Shown here in pieces: positions 1,714-36,200 of a stretch of DNA of 64,000 nucleotides. The stretch is from Brachionus manjavacas (Eukaryota > Rotifera > Eurotatoria > Ploima > Brachionidae), in contig JAHQIY010000007.1 in the NCBI GenBank assembly GCA_019054805.1, forward strand, positions 501,501 to 565,500, read 5' to 3'. The first letter of the stretch is position 1, and each line of letters starts with the position of its first letter. The translations under genes and the position numbers were made by a program. Below the pieces are notes generated by a model. The model was not told the origin of the DNA, did no database searches, and saw only the letters and a list, made by a program, of their open reading frames with translations.

Positions 1714-4700
1714 ATGAGCGAACAAGAAAACAGGTAAAAAATTTCTCTCAATATTTTCTCTTTCAAAATTTTTCCACGATCTCATAAAAAGCAGAGGATA
1801 ATAAAAAAAGCTAGACACTTTGACTATAAAACTTTGGTACACGTTGTGTATAGATTTCTTAAGGACTATGGAGTATAATAAGCTTAGTAAAACGTGTTTA
1901 AATTTTAAGTGAATACAAAGCCGACAGCGGCCCGCCAGGTATGGAGGTCGATGGCGTTATCGAGGTAAGTCACAGCCATTTACCATTTGAAATAATCTGA
2001 TAATTATTTTTTCTTAACAGAGCAATTGGAATGAGATTGCAGATAACTTCGATGAGATGAATCTACGCGAGGACTTGTTGCGTGGTATTTATGCGTATGG
2101 TTTTGAGAAGCCTTCGGCAATTCAACAGCGTGCTATCATTCCTTGCATCAGAGGTACTAATTCTTCTTATCCTTTCCCAAAAACCTTCAGAAAGAGATCT
2201 TTTTTTATCTAAAAAAAATCTTTTATTCTTTCATAGAAGGAAAATAAACCAAGTTAAAACTGAGTACAAATAACACTTGTTTATATTGTACTAATCAAGA
2301 CTTGAATAATTATTCTTAAATAAAAGTTAAAAGATCTATCCCGTGCAATTGAAATAAATTATCATGATTAATTTTTTAATCATCCTTTTACAAAGTCTCG
2401 TGATTATCTGAAGTGATTTTTATGAGATATTTAAAAAAAAGTAAAAGGAAAAATAAAAAGAAGGTCAAGTGAGATTATGAATCCTCAATATTCATTTGTC
2501 CCAATCCAATCTTCAATAATTTTTTTCAAAAAAGAAAACTGTAGCACATTCAGCTCCAAATTGCATTAAACCCTGATTGCAAGTTTCGGCGTTCCCTAAA
2601 TGTGCCAAATAATCAAATCTGCTTGCTATACTTCATTGTTTTATTTTCTTTTAAATTTTGAAGTACGTAGTATATTGACAAAAAATTATTAAGAAAATTT
2701 TTTTTTTAAAAAGAGGGATATTTAATTTTTGATTTTAAATGTCTTTTTCCATTGCACATTCAGCTCCAAATTGCATTAAACCCTGATTGCAAGTTTCGGC
2801 GTTCCCTAAATGTGCCAAATAATCAAATCTGCTTGCTATACTTCATTGTTTTATTTTCCTTTAAATGTTGGAGTACGTAGTATATTGACAAAAAATTATT
2901 AAGAATAATAATTTTTTTAATATTTCTCTTAATCAAATAAATAAATCTTTTTTTGTAAAATTTTTAAAACGTTAATTGATTTTATAAATTTCTTTTCAGG
3001 CCGTGATGTCATTGCTCAAGCTCAGTCTGGTACCGGTAAAACAGCTACGTTCTCGATTTCAATTTTGCAGCAATTGGACATGTCGATCAAAAGTTGTCAA
3101 GCACTTATATTGGCCCCAACTAGAGAGTTGGCTCAACAAGTGATTAAAAACTTTTTCTCCTAGAACAATTTTGTTACTGTTGGTATATTTAGATCCAAAA
3201 AGTCGTCTTGGCTTTGGGCGACTTTATGGGAGTAACTTGTCATGCTTGTATCGGTGGTACCAATGTAAAAGAGGATGCGCGAAAATTAGAAGTTGGCGCC
3301 CAAATCATTGTCGGAACTCCAGGTCGTGTGTCCGATATGATTAACCGAAAAGCTCTTAGTAAGTCTTTATCGCAAAAATTTCCCCGAACTTTTCTAATCA
3401 AAATATTAAGGTCCTAAGACAATTAAGTTATTTGTTTTGGATGAGGCTGACGAAATGTTGTCAAGAGGTTTCAAGGAACAAATTCATGATGTGTTCACCA
3501 AAATGCCGTACAATATCCAAGTCATTCTTTTATCTGCTACTATGCCAAGTGAGGTATTAGAAGTGACCAAAAAATTCATGAGAGATCCGATCAGAATTTT
3601 GGTCAAAAAAGAAGAGCTTACACTGGAAGGTATCAAGCAATTCTACGTTTTTGTCCAAAAAGAGGTAATTAAATGTTTATATTTTTTTATGTAAAAATTA
3701 AAACCTTTAAAAAATCATAGTCTATTTATAATTTAAAAAATAGATTATTCGAAGCATAAAGGAAAATTAATTTGTAGTAACTCGTTGTAGAGATAATTAT
3801 TTGAAATTTATCTTCAACTAATCAAAACTATAAACAAAATTTTAATCATCCTTTTACAAAGTCTCGTGATTATCTGAAGTGATATTTATGAGATATTACA
3901 AAAATAAGTAAAAGGAATAATAAAAAGAAGGTCAAGTGAGATTATGAATCCTCAATATTCATTTGTCCCAATCCAATCTTCAATAATTTTTTTCAAAAAA
4001 GAAAACTGTAGCACATTCAGCTCCAAATTGCATTAAACCCTGATTGCAAGTTTCGGCGTTCCCTAAATGTGCCAAATAATCAAATCTGCTTGCTATACTT
4101 CATTGTTTTATTTTCCTTTAAATGTTGGAGTACGTAGTATATTGACAAAAAAATTATTAAGAAAATTTTTTTATTAAAAAGAGGGATATTTAATTTTTGA
4201 TTTTAAATGTCTTTTTCCATTGCACATTCAGCTCCAAATTGCATTAAACCCTGATTGCAAGTTTCGGCGTTCCCTAAATGTGCCAAATAATCTAATCTGC
4301 TTGCTATACTTCATTGTTTTATTTTCCTTTAAATGTTGGAGTACGTAGTATATTGACAAAAAAATTATTAAGAAAATTTTTTTTATTAAAAAGAGGGATA
4401 TTTAATTTTTGATTTTAAATGTCTTTTTCCATTGCACATTCAGCTCCAAATTGCATTAAACCCTGATTGCAAGTTTCGGCGTTCCCTAAATGTGCCAAAT
4501 AATCTAATCTGCTTGCTATACTTCATTGTTTTATTTTCTTTTAAATTTTGAAGTACGTAGTATATTGACAAAAAAATTATTAAGAAAATTCTTTTTTATT
4601 AAAAAGAGGGATATTTAATTTTTGATTTTAAATGTCTTTTTCCATTGCACATTCAGCTCCAAATTGCATTAAACCCTGATTGCAAGTTTCGGCGTTCCCT

Positions 4701-5869
4701 AAATGTGCCAAATAATCTAATCTGCTTGCTATACTTCATTGTTTTATTTTCTTTTAAATTTTGAAGTACGTAGTATATTGACAAAAAAATTATTAAGAAA
4801 ATTCTTTTTTATTAAAAAGAGGGATATTTAATTTTTGATTTTAAATGTCTTTTTCCATTGCACATTCAGCTCCAAATTGCATTAAACCCTGATTGCAAGT
4901 TTCGGCGTTCCCTAAATGTGCCAAATAATCTAATCTGCTTGCTATACTTCATTGTTTTATTTTCTTTTAAATTTTGAAGTACGTAGTATATTGACAAAAA
5001 AATTATTAAGAAAATTCTTTTTTTAAAAAAGGGAGATTTTTAATTTTTTTATAATTTGAAAATTAAATTTTTTCCTTTTTTTACTTTAAATGTCTTTTTT
5101 CCATTGCACATTCAGCTCCAAATTGCATTAAACCCTGATGGCAAGTTTCGGCGTTCCCTAAATGTGCCAAATAATCAAATCTGCTTGCTATACTTCATTG
5201 TTTTATTTTCCTTTAAATGTTGGAGTACGTTGTATATTGACAAAAAATTATTAAGAATAATAATTTTTTTAATATTTCTCTTAATCAAATAAATAAAATT
5301 GAATAAATAAATTAGTTTATTTAATTTTTTTTTCTTTAATTTTAATTAATTGATATATTTCAGGACTGGAAACTGGACACCCTTTGTGACATTTACGAAA
5401 CATTGACAATTACTCAAGCCGTAATTTTCTGTAACACAAGACGTAAAGTCGACTGGTTGACTCAGCAAATGCACCAAAAAGACTTTACCGTTTCGGCCAT
5501 GCACGGTGACATGGATCAAAGAGAGCGTGAAGTAATCATGAGAGAATTCAGAACCGGATCTTCTCGTGTTTTGATCACCACTGATTTGCTTGCTCGTGGT
5601 ATTGATGTACAACAAGTATCATTGGTAATCAACTACGATTTGCCCAACAATCGTGAAAACTATATTCATAGGTACTTAATAAGAAAAAAATTTCAGAGAA
5701 TTTTTTTAAATTAAAATTAATTAGAATTGGTCGTGGTGGACGTTTCGGTCGTAAAGGTGTAGCCATCAATTTTGTGACTGATGAGGATAAAAAGAACTTG
5801 CACGATATTGAGACTTTCTATAACACTCAAATTAATGAAATGCCTCAAAACGTAGCTGATTTGCTTTAA
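1714..5869 (+). CDS. eIF4A: Eukaryotic initiation factor 4A, DEAD-box RNA helicase
   Basis: ATP-dependent RNA helicase of the cytoplasmic cap-binding complex eIF4F; it unwinds 5' UTR structure during translation initiation. Exons: 1714-1733, 1928-1964, 2021-2153, 3000-3139, 3193-3358, 3411-3664, 5364-5671, 5725-5869. They join in phase to a complete 400-residue protein, close to the usual size. Visible motifs: Q motif (PSAIQQ), Walker A AQSGTGKT at 71-78, PTRELA 103-108, DEAD 176-179, SAT 207-209, and HRIGRGGR 352-359. The first exon encodes only MSEQENS, and [12 protein letters not shown] in exon 2 matches metazoan eIF4A. Introns 3 and 6 are much longer than the others because they contain repeated 140-nt snoRNA-like units. 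A likely polyadenylation signal lies 54 bases past the stop. The DEAD-box paralogue eIF4A-III is less likely given the N-terminus and the C-terminal VADLL. Confidence 0.97.
2544..2683 (+). ncRNA. H/ACA snoRNA-like unit 1 (intron 3)
   Basis: A 140-nt core from GCACATT to ACA plus three bases. First hairpin: GCACATT pairs with AATGTGC, enclosing TTGCA/TGCAA. The hinge AAATAA fits box H (ANANNA). The second hairpin pairs ACTTCA with TGAAGT. ACA follows near the end. Hosting in an eIF4A intron also fits, since vertebrate EIF4A1 and EIF4A2 host snoRNAs. Folding was judged by eye. Confidence 0.5.
2754..2893 (+). ncRNA. H/ACA snoRNA-like unit 2 (intron 3)
   Basis: Same 140-nt core. The distal stem reads TTGGAGTACG instead of TTGAAGTACG; the A to G change still pairs with ACTTCA through a G-U wobble. 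Confidence 0.5.
4011..4150 (+). ncRNA. H/ACA snoRNA-like unit 3 (intron 6)
   Basis: 140-nt core preceded by the unique opening segment (GAAAACTGTA just before it), exactly as for unit 1 in intron 3. It has the TTGGAGTACG form of the distal stem. Confidence 0.5.
4222..4361 (+). ncRNA. H/ACA snoRNA-like unit 4 (intron 6)
   Basis: 140-nt core. The linker after the hinge reads AATCTAATCTGC rather than AATCAAATCTGC; the distal stem is the GGAG form. Confidence 0.5.
4434..4573 (+). ncRNA. H/ACA snoRNA-like unit 5 (intron 6)
   Basis: 140-nt core with the CTAAT linker and the GAAG distal stem. Confidence 0.5.
4647..4786 (+). ncRNA. H/ACA snoRNA-like unit 6 (intron 6)
   Basis: 140-nt core, by eye identical to unit 5 through both hairpins, which suggests recent amplification or conversion within the array. 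Confidence 0.5.
4860..4999 (+). ncRNA. H/ACA snoRNA-like unit 7 (intron 6)
   Basis: 140-nt core, same variant as units 5 and 6. The spacer after it is longer (next start at +246). Confidence 0.5.
5106..5245 (+). ncRNA. H/ACA snoRNA-like unit 8 (intron 6)
   Basis: 140-nt core with the older-looking AATCAAATC linker and GGAG distal stem shared with unit 2. It has private changes: GATGGCAAG in the first hairpin, and TACGTTGTAT near the 3' end. Confidence 0.5.
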
Positions 5870-9831: not shown

Positions 9832-11856
9832 ATGGCCAACAAGTCACCGGGCACCGAATCGAGCCTAAACTGCTCCAGCCAAGATGAAATTTCAGCGGAC
9901 AAAAAAACCAGAGGCAAAAACAAAAACTACTTCAGCTTATGCTCTTTCCGCGATTACTCAAGCGCCAACAAGGCGCTCAAAGAAACTTTCGATAGCCAAA
10001 AGTGGCGCAAGGGCAACATAAAAGGTGGCGACAAGCGCTACTACTCGTGCAACACCAATGGAGTAAAGTCCGATTGTCCTGTACGGATGTACTTGTTCAT
10101 GCACAGTGACAGCCAAATTTGCACGGTTTACATGTCAACCGACGAGCACAACCATCCTGGTTTGGACACAGAAGCCGACTCAAGCCGTCTCTCTTCCCAA
10201 ATAAGAGAGGAAATAATCAGAATTTACGAAAACGAGACCCACCAGACCAATTTAATAATAGAAAAGCTTCGAATCAAAAATTTCAAAGCCACTAAAATTC
10301 AAATTTACAATCTAATACATCGATACAGAATCAATCAGAGCGAGTCAAAAAACACCACTCTCAACCAGCTCAGAGACTACTGTTCAAATCATAAAAGCAC
10401 ACCACACGACCCGGACCAAGTCTACATTCCGGACACTTATTTCAAGTATGGTCTCAATGCACTGGAAGAATTTCGAATCTTTCTGACAACCAAGCGCTTG
10501 ATACAAATGGCCACCAAAGCCAATTGTGTTCACATAGATGTTACCTATAAGCTTTTGTGGCACGGACTGCCTGTGATCATCATCGGAACCACAGATTGTT
10601 CGCACAATTTTCACCCTTTTGGCTTAACAATTTGCAAGCATGAGAATGAGAATGATTTTGCATTTACATTTCAAGCTGTCAAGCAGCAACTAAAGCTTCT
10701 GTACAACCATGAAATTGAGCCGAGTACTCTGGTTGCCGAAGCTGATCCAGCAATTGAGCAAGCTTTTCGGCAAGTGTTCAAAAATGAATTTGAAAAAGTG
10801 CTCAGCTGGCCTCATGTTTTAAAACAAATTGACACAAAATTGAACATCATCAAAGACAACACAATAAGAAAATCCATCCGCGAAGATATTACCAATGTTC
10901 AGCTGCATGCAGAGGCCAACAATTTCAAGAGTGTAGTGTCTCAAATGCTGAAAAAATGGCAAAATTACCAACTAGATTCAGCCAATTTATTTTTAGATTT
11001 TTTTCGAGAAAATTGGATTGAAAAAAATTTCTGCTGGTTTGAATCTTTTGCTCCAAAAATTGCCAAGACAAGCAATGCTCTTGATCTAATAGATGCTTTA
11101 GTCAAAAAAGAAAACTCATTCCGCAAGCAATTGCCAGCGGCCGATTTTTTGAATATGGTCTCTTCAAAACTTCTGAATCGCTGGTCATCTGAAAGATCTG
11201 AAAGCCAAAATGCTCCTTTGTTGTTCAAAAGTTGCGTTGAGCCTAGTCTGGACAATTGGAGGTCTGCATGGCAATGGGAACTTTTGCATAATAATTCGAG
11301 AATTTCAGAAAAGTCTATGGATACCTGCAGTATATTTTATATTCCATCAGAAAAACTAGAAAATCTTGACGATCAATTGATAGAAAATTATGAAAAGTAC
11401 ACTAAATCGAGTGATGTGCCCGGGTTCGATACTTGGCTCGAATTAGTGACAAGTGTTTGGACCGTGACATTGGATCACATCGACTTCTACAAAAGTACTT
11501 GCACTTGTCCCTATTGGAGAAAAATGAATATATGTAAGCATACTGTTGCGCTAGCTTGTCGCCAGGGTTATTTGGAATGGCACCCGAACGCCAAAGATGT
11601 ACCATTGATTGAGAAAATAAAAAAAGATCGACCAAATAGTTCAAATGCTTTTTTGGCATCTCAAATTGCTGGTGGCGCATTCATTGAAAAGTTTTCTGCT
11701 AATGAAAAAATTCCGCTTTCAAAAGGAGAAAATAATCAGGAAAATTTGGAGCCTGCTTTGAAGCAGAGAAAAAGGGGAAGACCGGCAGGGTCCAAAATTC
11801 AAAGAGCAAGCATAGAAACATCAGAATCGGGTCCTAAAAAAGCTAGAAATCTTTAA
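9832..11856 (+). CDS. MULE transposase-like protein with SWIM zinc finger
   Basis: Uninterrupted 674-codon ORF with an ATG start. Residues about 36-110 form an N-terminal Cys/His zinc-binding module of the FLYWCH/WRKY-GCM1 kind (YYSCN, CPVRMY and a DEHNH motif). About 225-330 resembles the MULE transposase core: an aspartate in HIDVTYKLL, a second in AEADPAIEQAF, then SWPHV. About 556-570 is a SWIM finger, CTCPYWRKMNICKH. Near 645-660 lies an AT-hook-like KRGRPAGSK. The role would be DNA binding and cut-and-paste transposition, or a domesticated nuclear function. No flanking terminal inverted repeats were found, so mobility is unproven. The 5' part is clearly richer in G+C than the surroundings. 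A second, broken relative lies near 47465. Confidence 0.85.
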   Translation: MANKSPGTESSLNCSSQDEISADKKTRGKNKNYFSLCSFRDYSSANKALKETFDSQKWRKGNIKGGDKRYYSCNTNGVKSDCPVRMYLFMHSDSQICTVYMSTDEHNHPGLDTEADSSRLSSQIREEIIRIYENETHQTNLIIEKLRIKNFKATKIQIYNLIHRYRINQSESKNTTLNQLRDYCSNHKSTPHDPDQVYIPDTYFKYGLNALEEFRIFLTTKRLIQMATKANCVHIDVTYKLLWHGLPVIIIGTTDCSHNFHPFGLTICKHENENDFAFTFQAVKQQLKLLYNHEIEPSTLVAEADPAIEQAFRQVFKNEFEKVLSWPHVLKQIDTKLNIIKDNTIRKSIREDITNVQLHAEANNFKSVVSQMLKKWQNYQLDSANLFLDFFRENWIEKNFCWFESFAPKIAKTSNALDLIDALVKKENSFRKQLPAADFLNMVSSKLLNRWSSERSESQNAPLLFKSCVEPSLDNWRSAWQWELLHNNSRISEKSMDTCSIFYIPSEKLENLDDQLIENYEKYTKSSDVPGFDTWLELVTSVWTVTLDHIDFYKSTCTCPYWRKMNICKHTVALACRQGYLEWHPNAKDVPLIEKIKKDRPNSSNAFLASQIAGGAFIEKFSANEKIPLSKGENNQENLEPALKQRKRGRPAGSKIQRASIETSESGPKKARNL

Positions 11857-26761: not shown

Positions 26762-28018
26762 CTAATTATGAGTTAGACATGATACAGCTAAACCAAATGC
26801 AGAGAAAATACTGAATGGATAAGTAAAATCTAAAGTGTAAGTTTTTTCCTTAATTTTTCCGATTTGTAAAACAATGTTCTGATAGGGATCATTTTTGTCA
26901 GTCAATTGAATATTATTAGTTGAAGGCATTTGAGCCCTATCTTTAAAATCCATTGTGTAAGTTTTTGTCTTGGGATCAAATTGGGCATGTTTCGAGACCA
27001 AATATTTTTTCTTGGATCCTTTGTTTGGTCTTAAGGGAGCCAAATTTTCCTTAAACAGATTCAACACAACATTTACATCCTTTGGTTTCATGTTTCCAAT
27101 TAATTTGTTGTTAAAAGTAAGCTCAAAATATTTTTTATGCTTTTGTCTTGGCTCGTCCTCTGCCGTTTTCTCTTCGTCATAAGAATGGTCATGATCGCTT
27201 TCATCCTCTCTATTTTCGTACCATCCAATTAGGTCGTAATTACTCCGCTTCAAATTTGAGTGAAGCTCGCCCAGCTTTACTATTTCATTGTACCTGCTCA
27301 AATCTGTTGTTTTGAATGAATATGCCGAGCTGATTACAGACTTTTTGTGCTTAGTAAAAATTATTGGCTCATTTGGGTCATATTGATCAGATTCCAAGTA
27401 TAAAAAATATTCCGAATACATCCGTTTTTCTACTCGGATGCTACACCGAACTAGGGTTTCTTTGGGACAACATGCAATCAAAAATTTAGCCTGATCTTTT
27501 TGCAAAATTCCGAAATACTTATTTTCAAGGTATCGGTCTTCGTTTGGGTCAAATGAATAAATTTTTGTTTTAAAGTCGTAGCTTTTTTTGGTGCTGGAAT
27601 GAGTTTCAAAGTTCTCAAAGTCATCGTCATCGTGACCATGAGAATTTTTCCTGGTCCTCATTGGTACTGGTTTTACAATAAATGGATTGCTATCTTCTGT
27701 AAAATGAAATTCGGATCTTTTTATGCTTTTTTCACTGTCAGGCTGATTCAAGGCATTTTTATTTTTGAAATAGAATAACTTTTTATCTTTTGAGTTTACT
27801 TTATAATTCGCAGATATATTCTCATCATCTTCGGATGCGAAAGGTAAAATTTTTTTATTGTATTCTTTTGTTTTGGGCCTGACTCCAATAATCTTCTTTT
27901 GGTCAGTTTCTTTTTGACGGCGTTCATATTCAAAAGTTTCTGATAGATTTGCGTATATTAGATCTCTGCTTGAGGCTAGACCCGAGTTTGTCTTGTCGGA
28001 ACGATTAGTGGCGGACAT
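26762..28018 (-). CDS. Divergent Tubby-family protein
   Basis: Single exon, 418 residues, ATG start. The C-terminal half (about 165-418) follows the Tubby domain: YFLYLESDQYDPNEP matches the YFLHL strand region, and the end TYTLDFTYPFSIFSAFGLAV corresponds to the Tubby C-terminal TMDYNYPLCALQAFAIAL. The NVLGxKGPR signature and the basic phosphoinositide-binding segment are not preserved; the latter reads KHKKSVISSAYSF. An acidic/basic loop (DHDHSYDEEK) interrupts the domain. The N-terminus has SSRDLIYANL, close to SGRNLIFADR in the neighbouring Tubby gene at 31678. It is probably a diverged tandem paralogue; membrane or cargo binding is uncertain. Confidence 0.75.
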   Translation of the reverse strand: MSATNRSDKTNSGLASSRDLIYANLSETFEYERRQKETDQKKIIGVRPKTKEYNKKILPFASEDDENISANYKVNSKDKKLFYFKNKNALNQPDSEKSIKRSEFHFTEDSNPFIVKPVPMRTRKNSHGHDDDDFENFETHSSTKKSYDFKTKIYSFDPNEDRYLENKYFGILQKDQAKFLIACCPKETLVRCSIRVEKRMYSEYFLYLESDQYDPNEPIIFTKHKKSVISSAYSFKTTDLSRYNEIVKLGELHSNLKRSNYDLIGWYENREDESDHDHSYDEEKTAEDEPRQKHKKYFELTFNNKLIGNMKPKDVNVVLNLFKENLAPLRPNKGSKKKYLVSKHAQFDPKTKTYTMDFKDRAQMPSTNNIQLTDKNDPYQNIVLQIGKIKEKTYTLDFTYPFSIFSAFGLAVSCLTHN

Positions 28019-31677: not shown

Positions 31678-33213
31678 CTAATCGCATCCAATTTTGTTGT
31701 CTAAACTTGACAAAGCTACACCGAAAGCCTGCAGTGCACAAAATGGATAGGAAAAATCACAAGTATATAAATCTTTGTTCACTTTGCCAAATTGTGTCAC
31801 CACATAATCCGGATTTACTTCGTGAATTATTTGATAATTTTTAACTGATGATATAGTAACTCGACCATAAAAATTTAGTGCAAAAGAATTCAAACCACTA
31901 TTCCACTGGGGTGATTTATTAATTAATTTAACAACATTTCTTAAGTTTGATTTCGAATTGGATGCTTGACTCGACGCCGTGTTGGAATAAGCGTCCAATT
32001 TCGAGTTAGAAGTCCTCATACTGTTTTCCTCGGACTCTACCTCTTTATTGCTATCTCTTTTATTAGATTTTTTATTCAACTGGAACAAAGACCTTCTTAT
32101 TCGATTTTTTAAATTAGCCGGCTTGTCATTCGGATTAGTTCTTAAATTTTCCTCAATCCGCTTCCAAGAACTCAACAATGACTCCGATTTATATTTAAGA
32201 ATAAATTCCTCTCTGCAGTATTTATCATCCATGCCAGGTATGACCACATTCATGCTCCTTGGACCTTTAAGGCCCAGAACATTAAATCCGTATGTTATCG
32301 AAACATATTCTCGCCTTGATAAATTGGCATCCAAATTTTGGGCGTCTTCACTCGTTGTTTCCGAAAATTCCAATTCATTTGGACTGGCCTTTAGAAAATA
32401 GCTTTCTGGCGGAATGTCATTTATGGGCTTAATGCCAAAGTCATAGAGCTTAAATTGAGTACCGAATAGATTGGACTTTAGCTTGGCTAATGGCGTCTCA
32501 ATATATTTTTCTATATCATCTAGATCAAATGATATATAATTGATGATATAACAGTTGGTTTTGGTTTTTTTTTTCTTCCTGGCAGTCATTAAGAGAAGTA
32601 GATTTCCGTCAATGTTTTCCAAGTAAAATTTGTATTCCGGATAGAGGCCCTTGAAGCGAAATATTTGACATTTTATGCTAAGGCCTATTGAAGCTGGCTG
32701 TAGGACAAATTTTTTGGATGTTTTGTCTAAAAGGTCAAAAATTTTCAGATCGATTTGGGGAGTTTGATCATTTTGGTCGGATATCGGCACCGTGTCATTA
32801 GGCGCGACTAAAATTCTTGATGAGTCATCTGTGTTATTCGAATCTGTCGGATATTTGGGTAAACTTGGACTTAGGTCACCTTCTGAAGAGGAGTAATCTT
32901 TCGAATGGTCGAGTGTAACTGAATTTATGTTGAGTTTAGCTCCGTTTGTGAGCAAATTGTCTGAAGGTATTGACAGAGAATTTTTGTCGAATTTGCTAGC
33001 AACACCGTAGAATTTTTTTTCTTTCCTTTTTATTAGAAACGACTCGTTTATTGTGATGTTGGCCCGATGTTCTTCATCATCACTGGACGACTGATAGTCT
33101 AGAAAATTTGAATCGTTAGGCCTACCGAATTCAGTGTCCAAGTTGACCAGACCATTTCTGTCAGCAAATATCAAATTCCGACCACTAACTACACTGTTAT
33201 TCAATTCAGTCAT
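31678..33213 (-). CDS. TULP: Tubby-like protein (TUB/TULP family)
   Basis: Single-exon gene, 511 residues from the ATG at 33213; the frame is open a little further but has no other ATG. Residues about 168-511 are a clear Tubby domain: FVLQPASIGLSIKC, TARKKKKTKTNCYIINY (basic phosphoinositide-binding strand), GTQFKLYDFG, FNVLGLKGPRSMNVVIPGM, then PQWNSGLNSFALNFYGRVT and a C-terminal SYPFCALQAFGVALSSLD. Tubby proteins bind PI(4,5)P2 and the ciliary IFT-A complex and bring membrane receptors into cilia. An extra Lys/Ser/Asn-rich loop of about 80 residues (roughly 345-430) lies between the KSESLLSSW helix region and the KSPQWN segment. The absence of introns is unusual for animal TUB/TULP genes. 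Confidence 0.95.
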   Translation of the reverse strand: MTELNNSVVSGRNLIFADRNGLVNLDTEFGRPNDSNFLDYQSSSDDEEHRANITINESFLIKRKEKKFYGVASKFDKNSLSIPSDNLLTNGAKLNINSVTLDHSKDYSSSEGDLSPSLPKYPTDSNNTDDSSRILVAPNDTVPISDQNDQTPQIDLKIFDLLDKTSKKFVLQPASIGLSIKCQIFRFKGLYPEYKFYLENIDGNLLLLMTARKKKKTKTNCYIINYISFDLDDIEKYIETPLAKLKSNLFGTQFKLYDFGIKPINDIPPESYFLKASPNELEFSETTSEDAQNLDANLSRREYVSITYGFNVLGLKGPRSMNVVIPGMDDKYCREEFILKYKSESLLSSWKRIEENLRTNPNDKPANLKNRIRRSLFQLNKKSNKRDSNKEVESEENSMRTSNSKLDAYSNTASSQASNSKSNLRNVVKLINKSPQWNSGLNSFALNFYGRVTISSVKNYQIIHEVNPDYVVTQFGKVNKDLYTCDFSYPFCALQAFGVALSSLDNKIGCD

Positions 33214-36200
33214 TCGATTCAATAAAACAAATTCTTGGTTTAAAAAAATAAGTATTAAAAAAACTAATACGAAAAAGATTTAAATTTAAAATTCTAAAGA
33301 AATTTTCACTTAAATTTATTTCAAAAAATAAAAAAAAATTTCAATAATTAAATCCAATGGGAGATTATGAAAAAAAAGGCATTTTCATATAAATTAAAAT
33401 AAAATAAAATAAAACAAACAATTTGATAACATATTTCTTTTAAAAGCGCTTTTCCTTTGTTTTTTAATCATGAAAATTTAAATTATGCCAATTTAAATCA
33501 TAACAGTATCACAGAAAAAAAATAATATCCTTAGCAAACATTAAAAAATTGCTTTTTTTTTTAGAGAAATTTTAGTCTAATTATACACTTTAATTTTTTT
33601 TTCTTTAATTTTAAATATTGAAAGCGTTCGATTATCATCAAAAAATTTGACTCGTTTTTTGCTTGATATCTTTGCTGTTCCTGAGTATATTTAAATTTAA
33701 ATATTTTTTAAAATTTAAGATTGTAACATGGAAATCAAAATTTCCATTCAGGTGTAAGAAGTACCATGTCAATTTGATTTTAACATCTAGCAGTCATGCG
33801 TTCAGGAAGCTTTTTAAATTTACAGGAACCGATTCTACAAGTAAAACAACTAAATCTTATTTGCATTTAAAACCGATTTAAGCATTCCACTTGATTTAAC
33901 AATGCTGAAGGCCTCCTAGCAAAAATTAAGGATGTTCTGACTCAGTTAATTCCATTATTTTAAATCAGCCAGAAATATACATTTTCAGGGTACTAGCTAA
34001 ACAAATTATTAGACTATATTTTGTTCAGTCAATAATTATCTAAATTATTTATTTGGATTTATTGAAATTGTCGAAGAATGGTGCTAATAAAACTAAATTA
34101 AAGATTAAAATTTCGCTTAAACTCGAAACTAAATACACTAATAGCAAACAAGTTTCTTGTTCGGATCCAAACTAATTTCTTAATTGGATTTTGCAAATTT
34201 ACAAAAACACATCCGGGTACTCTGAAACCCAAAGAAGATTGTTAGATGAGATAAAAAAATAAAAAACAAAAACCTAAATCACAAATTTCGGTACAGTACA
34301 AAAATTTTTTAAAATGCTTTTTGTGTAAAATTAAAAGTTTTAAAATTTTATAATAAAAAAATCACGTTTTTGTTATTTCCTTTATAAGAATGTGGAGTTT
34401 TGCTTAGTAAATTATGATTCATTTTAAAAGCGATCATTGAAAACAGAAATAAATCAACTTTTTTGAATTTTAAAATTACAGTCAATTAGAAAATGTAATT
34501 ATAAAATCAATTTTTTGAATTTGAGGGAATAAATTATTGGAAAATAGATCGATTATTAATTACTTATATTATTTTACTCTTTTAAATGTTGATTCTTTAA
34601 AATCTCTTTAAGTTTCGTTTGCAATAATTGTTTTGTTTAAATAGTTTATCGAATTTAGTTTGTTTTTTTAAATTGCTCTATGTAAAGTATATCCAAATTT
34701 TTGGATATCAGATATTTGAGATAAATGCATGATATTTTTAAAACGCTGGCTAACAATAAATATCTTTAGAATTAACGTCAGCACATTCTTAATTTCTTAT
34801 TACGTAATAAAAAAACATAAATAAAAAGTGACTACGAAATCGGACATTTATGATTCGAATGTTTAATTAAAATTTAAAATTGGAGGAGGAAAAAATTCAA
34901 AAGTGACGTCAAAAAAAACGTAAAAATTCAGAACGTTCGAAAATTGCTAATTTTATCGATTTAATAAAACAATACATTAAATTTTGTTTATTTAATTCAT
35001 TGATCTCAAGTAAATTGGTTTGAAAAATCTTTTAAAATTAACAGATTTTTTGATTTTTATTAAAAAATAGTTAGTTACCTGTTTGAAATTTTTAGTTTAG
35101 AATTTGTTAATAACAATTAAAAAAAATAGATTTATTTTCCATTCAGTTGATAGACTTAACTAAAGAGCAATTATTGTTAATGATATTTCAGATTTTGTCA
35201 AGCACCTGAGACTGTTTAAAAATGCCTCTTGGCAACTTTTGAACAACAAGAATTGACCATTTTTACATTAACAATTCAATAATTTGAAATTAATTACTTT
35301 TTAAACATGGAGACTCCCACTTCTTAAAATTCAATAAAACAATTTAAAAACTTTTGAAATTCATTAACCTTCTTTTTAAAAGGAAATTCTTGTTTTGATT
35401 CCAAAAAATACGCAAATGCCTCTTCGAACCTTTTCTCGGCAACTTTACTCTTTTAAACAACAGTAATTTCAAATTATAAAAGAAAAAATTTAAAATTTCT
35501 TTATTTTTGACTAAAACTACTGTGATCTTCTTCTTAATGCTTTAATTGTGCTAAACAAATTAATAAGTAACTGAAAAAAAAAGTTATTAATTTATTTTTG
35601 GCATTACAACAAACTAAAATTTAAAAATTTCGTTTTTAGTTGCAAAAATTTTAGATTAAAAATAATGAAACGCTTTTACTTCTAAGATTTCAAGCCGTAT
35701 AAACTTGAGACTAAATCATTCCTTAGAAATTTGGCATAAAATTTTTTTTTAATTTTAAAAAAATATTCAAGAAAGCATTTTATTTTTTCTAAAACCCTTT
35801 TTCAGTTTTTTTCTTTTCGTTTAAGAAAGGCAATCAAATCAAATTTTTCCAGAATGAATTTGATTAAACAACTTTTAATTAAGCTTGATTAAAGTGCAAT
35901 TTAATAAAATGCCTGAAAGAGACTTAGGTTTTACATGGTTATAAGAGAATTTAACTGATCAATTTTCAAATTTGGGAATTTAAAGCTGAATTAATTGTTT
36001 TTAAATTCAAAATAGGTATTTTAAATCAAGTGTTTATAGGAACTTGTTCGTAAAAGAATCACATAATTATTCCATTTTTTTTGCATTTTATATTGATCTT
36101 TATTTCTTGCGGAATTTTTTTCATACTTAAATTTATCATGTGAGAAAATATGCTTAAAAAATAAATATTGAAAAAAGAACTTTTATTTATCATAATAAAT

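Follow-up and report, generated by a model that had tools for sequence, protein, structure and literature searches.

What are the eight nearly identical units of 140 nt that stand in tandem inside two introns of an eIF4A gene in the rotifer Brachionus manjavacas? They lie in a 64,000-nt stretch of contig JAHQIY010000007.1 (assembly GCA_019054805.1, positions 501,501 to 565,500), referred to here as the window, and coordinates are those of the window unless another locus is named. An original prediction had proposed that the units are box H/ACA small nucleolar RNAs (snoRNAs), and the present analysis supports this hypothesis. The support comes from a diverged copy elsewhere in the genome that folds into two hairpins with paired changes and stands beside RPL7A and SNORD-like sequences, from pockets that fit the large-subunit (LSU) ribosomal RNA (rRNA), and from a parallel in chicken EIF4A2. 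Judged from sequence and predicted structure, the units are very probably intron-encoded box H/ACA guide snoRNAs of the E3/GGgACA30 kind, kept in eIF4A and tandemly amplified. The unusual part is their arrangement, with up to six copies in one intron.

Eight uniform cores in an intact eIF4A gene

The host gene is intact: its spliced model is stop-free and encodes 400 aa with DEAD and Helicase_C domains, and the best match among solved structures is eIF4A-I, as expected of the proposed host. Intron 3 (2154-2999) houses units 1 and 2, and intron 6 (3665-5363) houses units 3 to 8. The core of each unit is defined as running from GCACATT to three bases past an ACA.

1714 to 5869, plus strand: eIF4A host gene, eight exons (1714-1733, 1928-1964, 2021-2153, 3000-3139, 3193-3358, 3411-3664, 5364-5671, 5725-5869)
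2544 to 2683, plus strand: unit 1 (i3a), putative H/ACA core, intron 3
2754 to 2893, plus strand: unit 2 (i3b), intron 3, 106 nt from its end to the 3' splice site
4011 to 4150, plus strand: unit 3 (i6a), intron 6
4222 to 4361, plus strand: unit 4 (i6b), intron 6
4434 to 4573, plus strand: unit 5 (i6c), intron 6
4647 to 4786, plus strand: unit 6 (i6d), intron 6
4860 to 4999, plus strand: unit 7 (i6e), intron 6
5106 to 5245, plus strand: unit 8 (i6f), intron 6, 118 nt from its end to the 3' splice site

The positions and the 140-nt length predicted for the cores held for all eight, with no indels among them. Six of the 140 columns vary (35, 72, 106, 114, 118 and 126), giving five distinct sequences with pairwise differences at 0 to 6 positions; two of the substitutions (columns 35 and 126) are private to unit 8. 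The spacers between units measure 70, 71, 72, 73, 73 and 106 nt. Start-to-start distances are 210 in intron 3 and 211, 212, 213, 213 and 246 in intron 6, in agreement with the variable periods first described. Both arrays finish near the 3' splice site of their intron.

Boxes and hairpins of the units

The elements proposed for an H/ACA RNA are listed here for unit 1.

2551 to 2555, plus strand: 5' pocket, left guide CAGCT, pairing with AGCUG of an LSU site (5 Watson-Crick pairs)
2590 to 2598, plus strand: 5' pocket, right guide CGTTCCCTA, pairing with UAGGGAACG of the same LSU site (9 Watson-Crick pairs)
2607 to 2612, plus strand: hinge AAATAA, fitting box H (ANANNA)
2623 to 2629, plus strand: 3' pocket, left guide TTGCTAT, 7 pairs (one G-U) to AUAGCGA of LSU
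2665 to 2668, plus strand: 3' pocket, right guide ACGT, 4 pairs (one G-U) to GCGU of LSU
2678 to 2680, plus strand: ACA, followed by three bases up to the proposed 3' end

Every eIF4A unit has its guides, its box H and its ACA intact. The AAATAA hinge, which satisfies the box H consensus, is identical in all eight cores and in the diverged copy described below, and an ACA follows the second hairpin in 9/9 copies, the 3' end of the RNA being proposed. Folding of each of the eight cores formed the first hairpin and the upper stem of the second. The outer stem of the first hairpin has 7/7 pairs in the eight units and 6/7 in the diverged copy. Thus the outer stem, the hinge, the ACA and the G-U variant in the second hairpin were all found as originally described. 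The pairs TTGCA/TGCAA also form, but folding sets them inside a longer, bulged upper stem.

A diverged copy beside RPL7A

The 114-Mb assembly (61 contigs) was searched by DNA similarity and by pattern, and the match counts are lower bounds. A search with the core returned nine matches, namely the eight eIF4A units and one copy of 71% identity on another contig, C24. A pattern search with the 5' pocket strands gave 11 forward and no reverse matches, which are the same nine and two more that have no stem and box after them; with the pattern reversed as a control there were 2 and 1 matches (3 in total).

The C24 copy begins 228 nt past the stop codon of RPL7A (eL8). It folds as hairpin, hinge, hairpin and ACA at -30.7 kcal/mol (z -3.24, reached by 0/500 shuffles), better than the eIF4A cores, and keeps CAGCT, CGTTCCCTA, AAATAA and ACA unchanged. 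Stem pairs were counted by a script anchored on flanking conserved letters, because the MAFFT alignment misplaces the C24 arms of the upper second stem. In this stem, pair 5 is U-A or U-G, in four units each, and C-G in the C24 copy, and pair 6 is C-G in all eight units and U-A in the C24 copy. The upper first stem changes from AA/UU in eIF4A to GG/CC in C24, provided that a bulged C is allowed in the eIF4A copies; if no bulge is assumed, there is one compensated change, and G-C replaces one A-C mismatch. The second hairpin of the C24 copy also resembles the Rfam H/ACA family snoR136, in a match that covers both guide strands but stays below threshold (27.8 bits, cut-off 43; E 0.018).

Within the RPL7A gene, SNORD24 (41.2, cut-off 41) and SNORD36 (31, cut-off 30) both barely reach the Rfam cut-off. 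Beside the C24 H/ACA copy are a SNORD24-like sequence (40.4 against a cut-off of 41) and a weaker SNORD36/27-like sequence (24.4 against 30 and 22.4 against 52). These box C/D-like copies downstream of RPL7A, resembling SNORD36/27 and SNORD24 (4390-4459 and 4671-4739 of the C24 locus L014), are apparently duplicates of sequences in RPL7A introns.

Two predicted guide pockets and their candidate LSU targets

Comparison of the pockets with rRNA, which had been suggested with the original prediction, gave a fit of the 5' pocket to a conserved LSU site and a weaker fit of the 3' pocket at a U 101 nt upstream. CAGCT and CGTTCCCTA form 14 Watson-Crick pairs (9+5) with UAGGGAACG-U-G-AGCUG in an open pocket; opening of the outer stem at its base would add three pairs, two of which are G-U. 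The score of 15.8 compares with a maximum of 12.4 for 400 shuffled guides run against the rotifer's own 18S and 5.8S and one eukaryotic LSU; at the fixed LSU site, 0/5000 shuffled guides score as well. With the same boundaries, the best score on its own 18S is 6.3. Conservation of the LSU stretch that holds this target reaches back to archaea, a 38-nt pattern occurring in at least 108 stretches of other genomes' contigs. LSU was scanned in 4 of the 80 loci listed from other organisms' contigs, plus L023, and the site was found in four eukaryotic LSU sequences (L050, L072, L099 and L023).

We take the U of UAGGGAACG-U-G-AGCUG to be yeast U2944, the snR37 site. This equation rests on yeast numbering and on a 101-nt spacing equal to that between chicken positions 3976 and 3875. 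If it holds, the predicted 5' pocket fits the site that we equate with that of the snR37/ACA10 guide group. In the available parts of the sources, snR37 is a predicted guide for yeast U2944 for which experimental evidence is lacking (PMC8994135), and NcACA15, listed as the equivalent of snR37 and ACA10, employs its box-H hairpin (PMC2780460).

The second target was approached through a chicken snoRNA. GGgACA30, the cognate of human E3, lies in intron 8 of EIF4A2 and is listed with 28S-3976 for its 5' pocket (snR37, SNORA82/ACA10) and 28S-3875 for its 3' pocket (E3) in the accessible part of its source (PMC2653536). We accept the 3' target only since this chicken table fixed the site, which was then tested at -101. 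In L072, the U at exactly -101 from the 5' target stands within GCGU-U-C-AUAGCGA, where the 3' pocket forms 4+7 pairs, a weaker pairing than that of the 5' pocket. It is the best 3' pocket match in the 595-nt L072 LSU for both isoforms (9.8 and 10.4). At the fixed site with boundaries maximised, 10/5000 and 2/5000 shuffled guides were as good.

The rotifer's own 18S and 5.8S offered no convincing site for either pocket. On contig C10 (L019, L020 and L022) there are two 18S genes and one 5.8S, with no 28S in the stretches fetched, and the ribosomal DNA unit there looks incompletely assembled. A complete bacterial-type 23S and 5S pair lies at 409-3416 of L021, on the 1.22-Mb contig C21, and some 155 kb from it is another LSU match; C21 is a bacterial contig within the assembly, and its LSU was rejected as the nuclear 28S because it is of bacterial type.

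A probable E3-like identity

The units resemble GGgACA30 and E3 (SNORA63) in their H/ACA class, in an eIF4A-family host, in the order of the pockets and in the 101-nt spacing of the predicted targets, as far as these are given in the available parts of the sources (PMC2653536, PMC7072173). With host gene, pocket order and target spacing all shared, the units are best identified as an E3-like H/ACA snoRNA. The SNORA63 covariance model matched neither the units of the window nor the C24 copy at any threshold used, and we therefore call the units E3-like and keep them outside the Rfam SNORA63 family. GGgACA30 is described as one 130-nt copy in intron 8, whereas the rotifer has eight copies of 140 nt in two introns, without an Rfam match. 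For human SNORA63, hosted by EIF4A2, the listed site is 28S U4390 of helix 89 (PMC7072173), and human E3 reportedly keeps the 28S-4390 target only (PMC2653536). Yeast snR37, human ACA10 and Neurospora NcACA15 are guides for the site that we equate with the rotifer 5' target; snR37 has 386 nt and NcACA15, which is intergenic, 233 nt, and neither is given as an intronic array in the accessible portions of their descriptions (PMC2780460, PMC8994135).

A number of results weigh against the identification. The folds of the eIF4A cores are modest (z -1.8 for unit 1 and -1.99 for unit 5) or, for unit 8, no better than shuffled (z -0.15), these being the three of the eight units that were tested by shuffling. 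Folding and pair counts agree with the original prediction that the lower stem of the second hairpin is weak in the eIF4A units. Pocket-to-box distance in H/ACA snoRNAs is usually 14-16 nt; the 17 nt (5') and 13 nt (3') of the units fall slightly outside this range. The covariance search named with the original prediction matched the units to no snoRNA family: Rfam at curated cut-offs returned nothing in the 64,000-nt window, and for the units at E up to 10 it gave 5 and 2 matches, none of them a snoRNA family. In the C24 copy, pair 7 of the upper second stem is lost, and the paired changes come from this single diverged sequence, so that they amount to one independent comparison and give support rather than proof. 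Three probes did not find the nuclear 28S in the assembly, one of the empty answers being itself uninformative, and both targets were therefore read from the LSU of other organisms. For the 3' pocket, blind scans of the rotifer's 18S and 5.8S and of LSU gave no clear site, the -101 site ranks only 4th (eIF4A copy) and 2nd (C24) in the divergent L050 LSU, and the C24 3' guide scores 9.9 on the rotifer's 18S against 10.4 at the LSU site. Finally, GGgACA30 is listed with a third target, 28S-1612, for its 3' pocket (PMC2653536, in the part available).

Alternative explanations

The array could be a snapshot of decay. The snoRNA would then come from just one or two copies, such as unit 2 or the C24 copy, and the rest would be recent, unprocessed duplicates. 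Since the spacers as well as the cores show near identity, much of the similarity needs no other cause than recent duplication. Unit 8 has two private changes and a fold no better than shuffled, and the usual animal rule of a single snoRNA per intron, as given in the accessible parts of two sources (PMC11028025, PMC1821038), points the same way. Yet there is not one indel over 8 x 140 core positions while the spacers span 70-106 nt, and guides, box H and ACA have survived in all eight units. We consider this explanation a serious one, although somewhat improbable.

It is unlikely that eIF4A acquired its H/ACA guide for the snR37/ACA10 site separately, with no link to vertebrate E3. Such a convergent choice of host would be consistent with the lack of an Rfam snoRNA match to the units, with the moderate match of the 3' pocket and with 28S-4390 as the sole target reported for human E3 (PMC2653536, available part), but the host gene, the order of the pockets and the 101-nt spacing all equal those of chicken GGgACA30 according to the same source.

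A role in cis is less likely still. The array would then mainly form an intronic structure that alters eIF4A splicing or output, much as the box C/D snoRNA SNORD2 is described, in the portion of its source available, to control splicing of human EIF4A2 through adjacent-intron pairing (PMC10324135). The C24 copy stands outside eIF4A and keeps both rRNA-fitting pockets although its stems change, which points to a guide acting in trans. A dispersed mobile element or satellite with chance structure, to which the tandem period of about 211-213 nt might seem to speak, can be practically dismissed and was rejected, since the genome search, with its counts as lower bounds, returned just nine places, eight of them in eIF4A, and the pockets fit two LSU sites; dispersal as a transposon was the outcome that the original prediction had named as contrary to it.

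Possible origin and processing of the array

If the units are E3-like H/ACA snoRNAs, the snoRNA would most likely have kept its place in eIF4A ever since the last ancestor shared with vertebrates. The units would have been multiplied by unequal exchange, and the block of one intron would have been copied into the other. The array flanks, upstream and downstream, are common to both introns, indicating that one block was copied and that copy number changed afterwards.

About 2374 to 2945, plus strand: duplicated block of intron 3 (upstream element, two units and 3' flank), both ends of which align to 3840-5297
About 3840 to 5297, plus strand: duplicated block of intron 6 (upstream element, six units and 3' flank), aligning to the intron 3 block

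The upstream elements (2374-2530 and 3840-3997) have a strong two-hairpin fold of their own with an A-rich hinge (z -4.21 and -4.17, 0/200 shuffles each), and the genome search places the element at these two sites only. No snoRNA family of Rfam matched it at E up to 1, and an ACA was not found by eye; a scan for pockets against rRNA gave best scores of 11-12, which is noise level, and no convincing pocket. The element may be a second structured RNA.

From known H/ACA biology, we anticipate that eIF4A is spliced and the introns are debranched, that H/ACA proteins on the cores stop exonucleases, and that the mature ribonucleoproteins (RNPs) would turn two LSU uridines near the peptidyl transferase centre into pseudouridine. 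An E3-like guide would also lead us to expect UAGGGAACGUGAGCUG in the 28S of this organism. Trimming from the two ends would free only the outermost copies; thus, either intron 6 is cut between units, or it yields fewer RNAs than units, or composite RNAs are made. We tentatively propose that intron 6 is a multi-snoRNA precursor, in which six units form H/ACA RNPs on one lariat that is then cut by an endonuclease or kept as a stable composite RNA (poly-sno-lncRNA). Such a precursor, which we see as possible but doubtful, would couple eIF4A expression with the dose of a guide that acts at the peptidyl transferase centre.

Known arrangements offer partial parallels, as far as the available parts of their descriptions go. 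The array was predicted to be unusual, and this agrees with reports that animals mostly hold one snoRNA per intron (PMC11028025, PMC1821038) and that fly snoRNA clusters are mostly spread over different introns (PMC5932544). Intronic clusters in rice and Drosophila likewise have multiple snoRNA genes within the introns of one gene (PMC2780460, PMC1821038); the fly box C/D snoRNA DmSnR60 has one copy per intron in introns 6-9, compared with 2 and 6 copies per intron of the rotifer H/ACA RNA (PMC1821038). Mammalian arrays of the SNORD115/SNORD116 type also arose by head-to-tail amplification and homogenisation of one snoRNA, but they are box C/D, in repeated introns of non-coding hosts, whereas the rotifer array is H/ACA with several copies per intron of a protein-coding host (PMC11028025). 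In Plasmodium, two different C/D snoRNAs share one intron (PMC2656528). In long non-coding RNAs with snoRNA ends (sno-lncRNAs), such as SLERT, two snoRNAs in one intron give a single RNA (PMC11028025); intron 6 of the rotifer gene differs in having six units. In the literature searched, with most subscription journals outside its scope and several sources available in part, we found no precedent for an intron that holds one H/ACA snoRNA in six copies.

Other genes near the units

Three further open frames of the window encode recognisable products. These are a 674-aa frame with MULE transposase and SWIM domains (9832-11856, plus strand) and two adjacent single-frame genes of the Tub family (26762-28018 and 31678-33222, both minus strand). 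At the RPL7A locus on C24, open frames at 7436-8584 of L014 resemble a Tc1/mariner-type transposase by eye.

Implications

If the reading of the units as E3-like guides is correct, it suggests that the pairing of such a guide with an eIF4A host has endured in lineages far apart, despite the view that snoRNAs switch hosts. It would also mean that an H/ACA gene that Rfam does not recognise can be found through its pockets and a diverged paralogue. Endonuclease cutting of intron 6, if it occurs, would break the animal pattern of one snoRNA per intron. The array would offer a natural experiment on the processing of an intron with six snoRNAs, and on whether a higher copy number raises the level of the guide.

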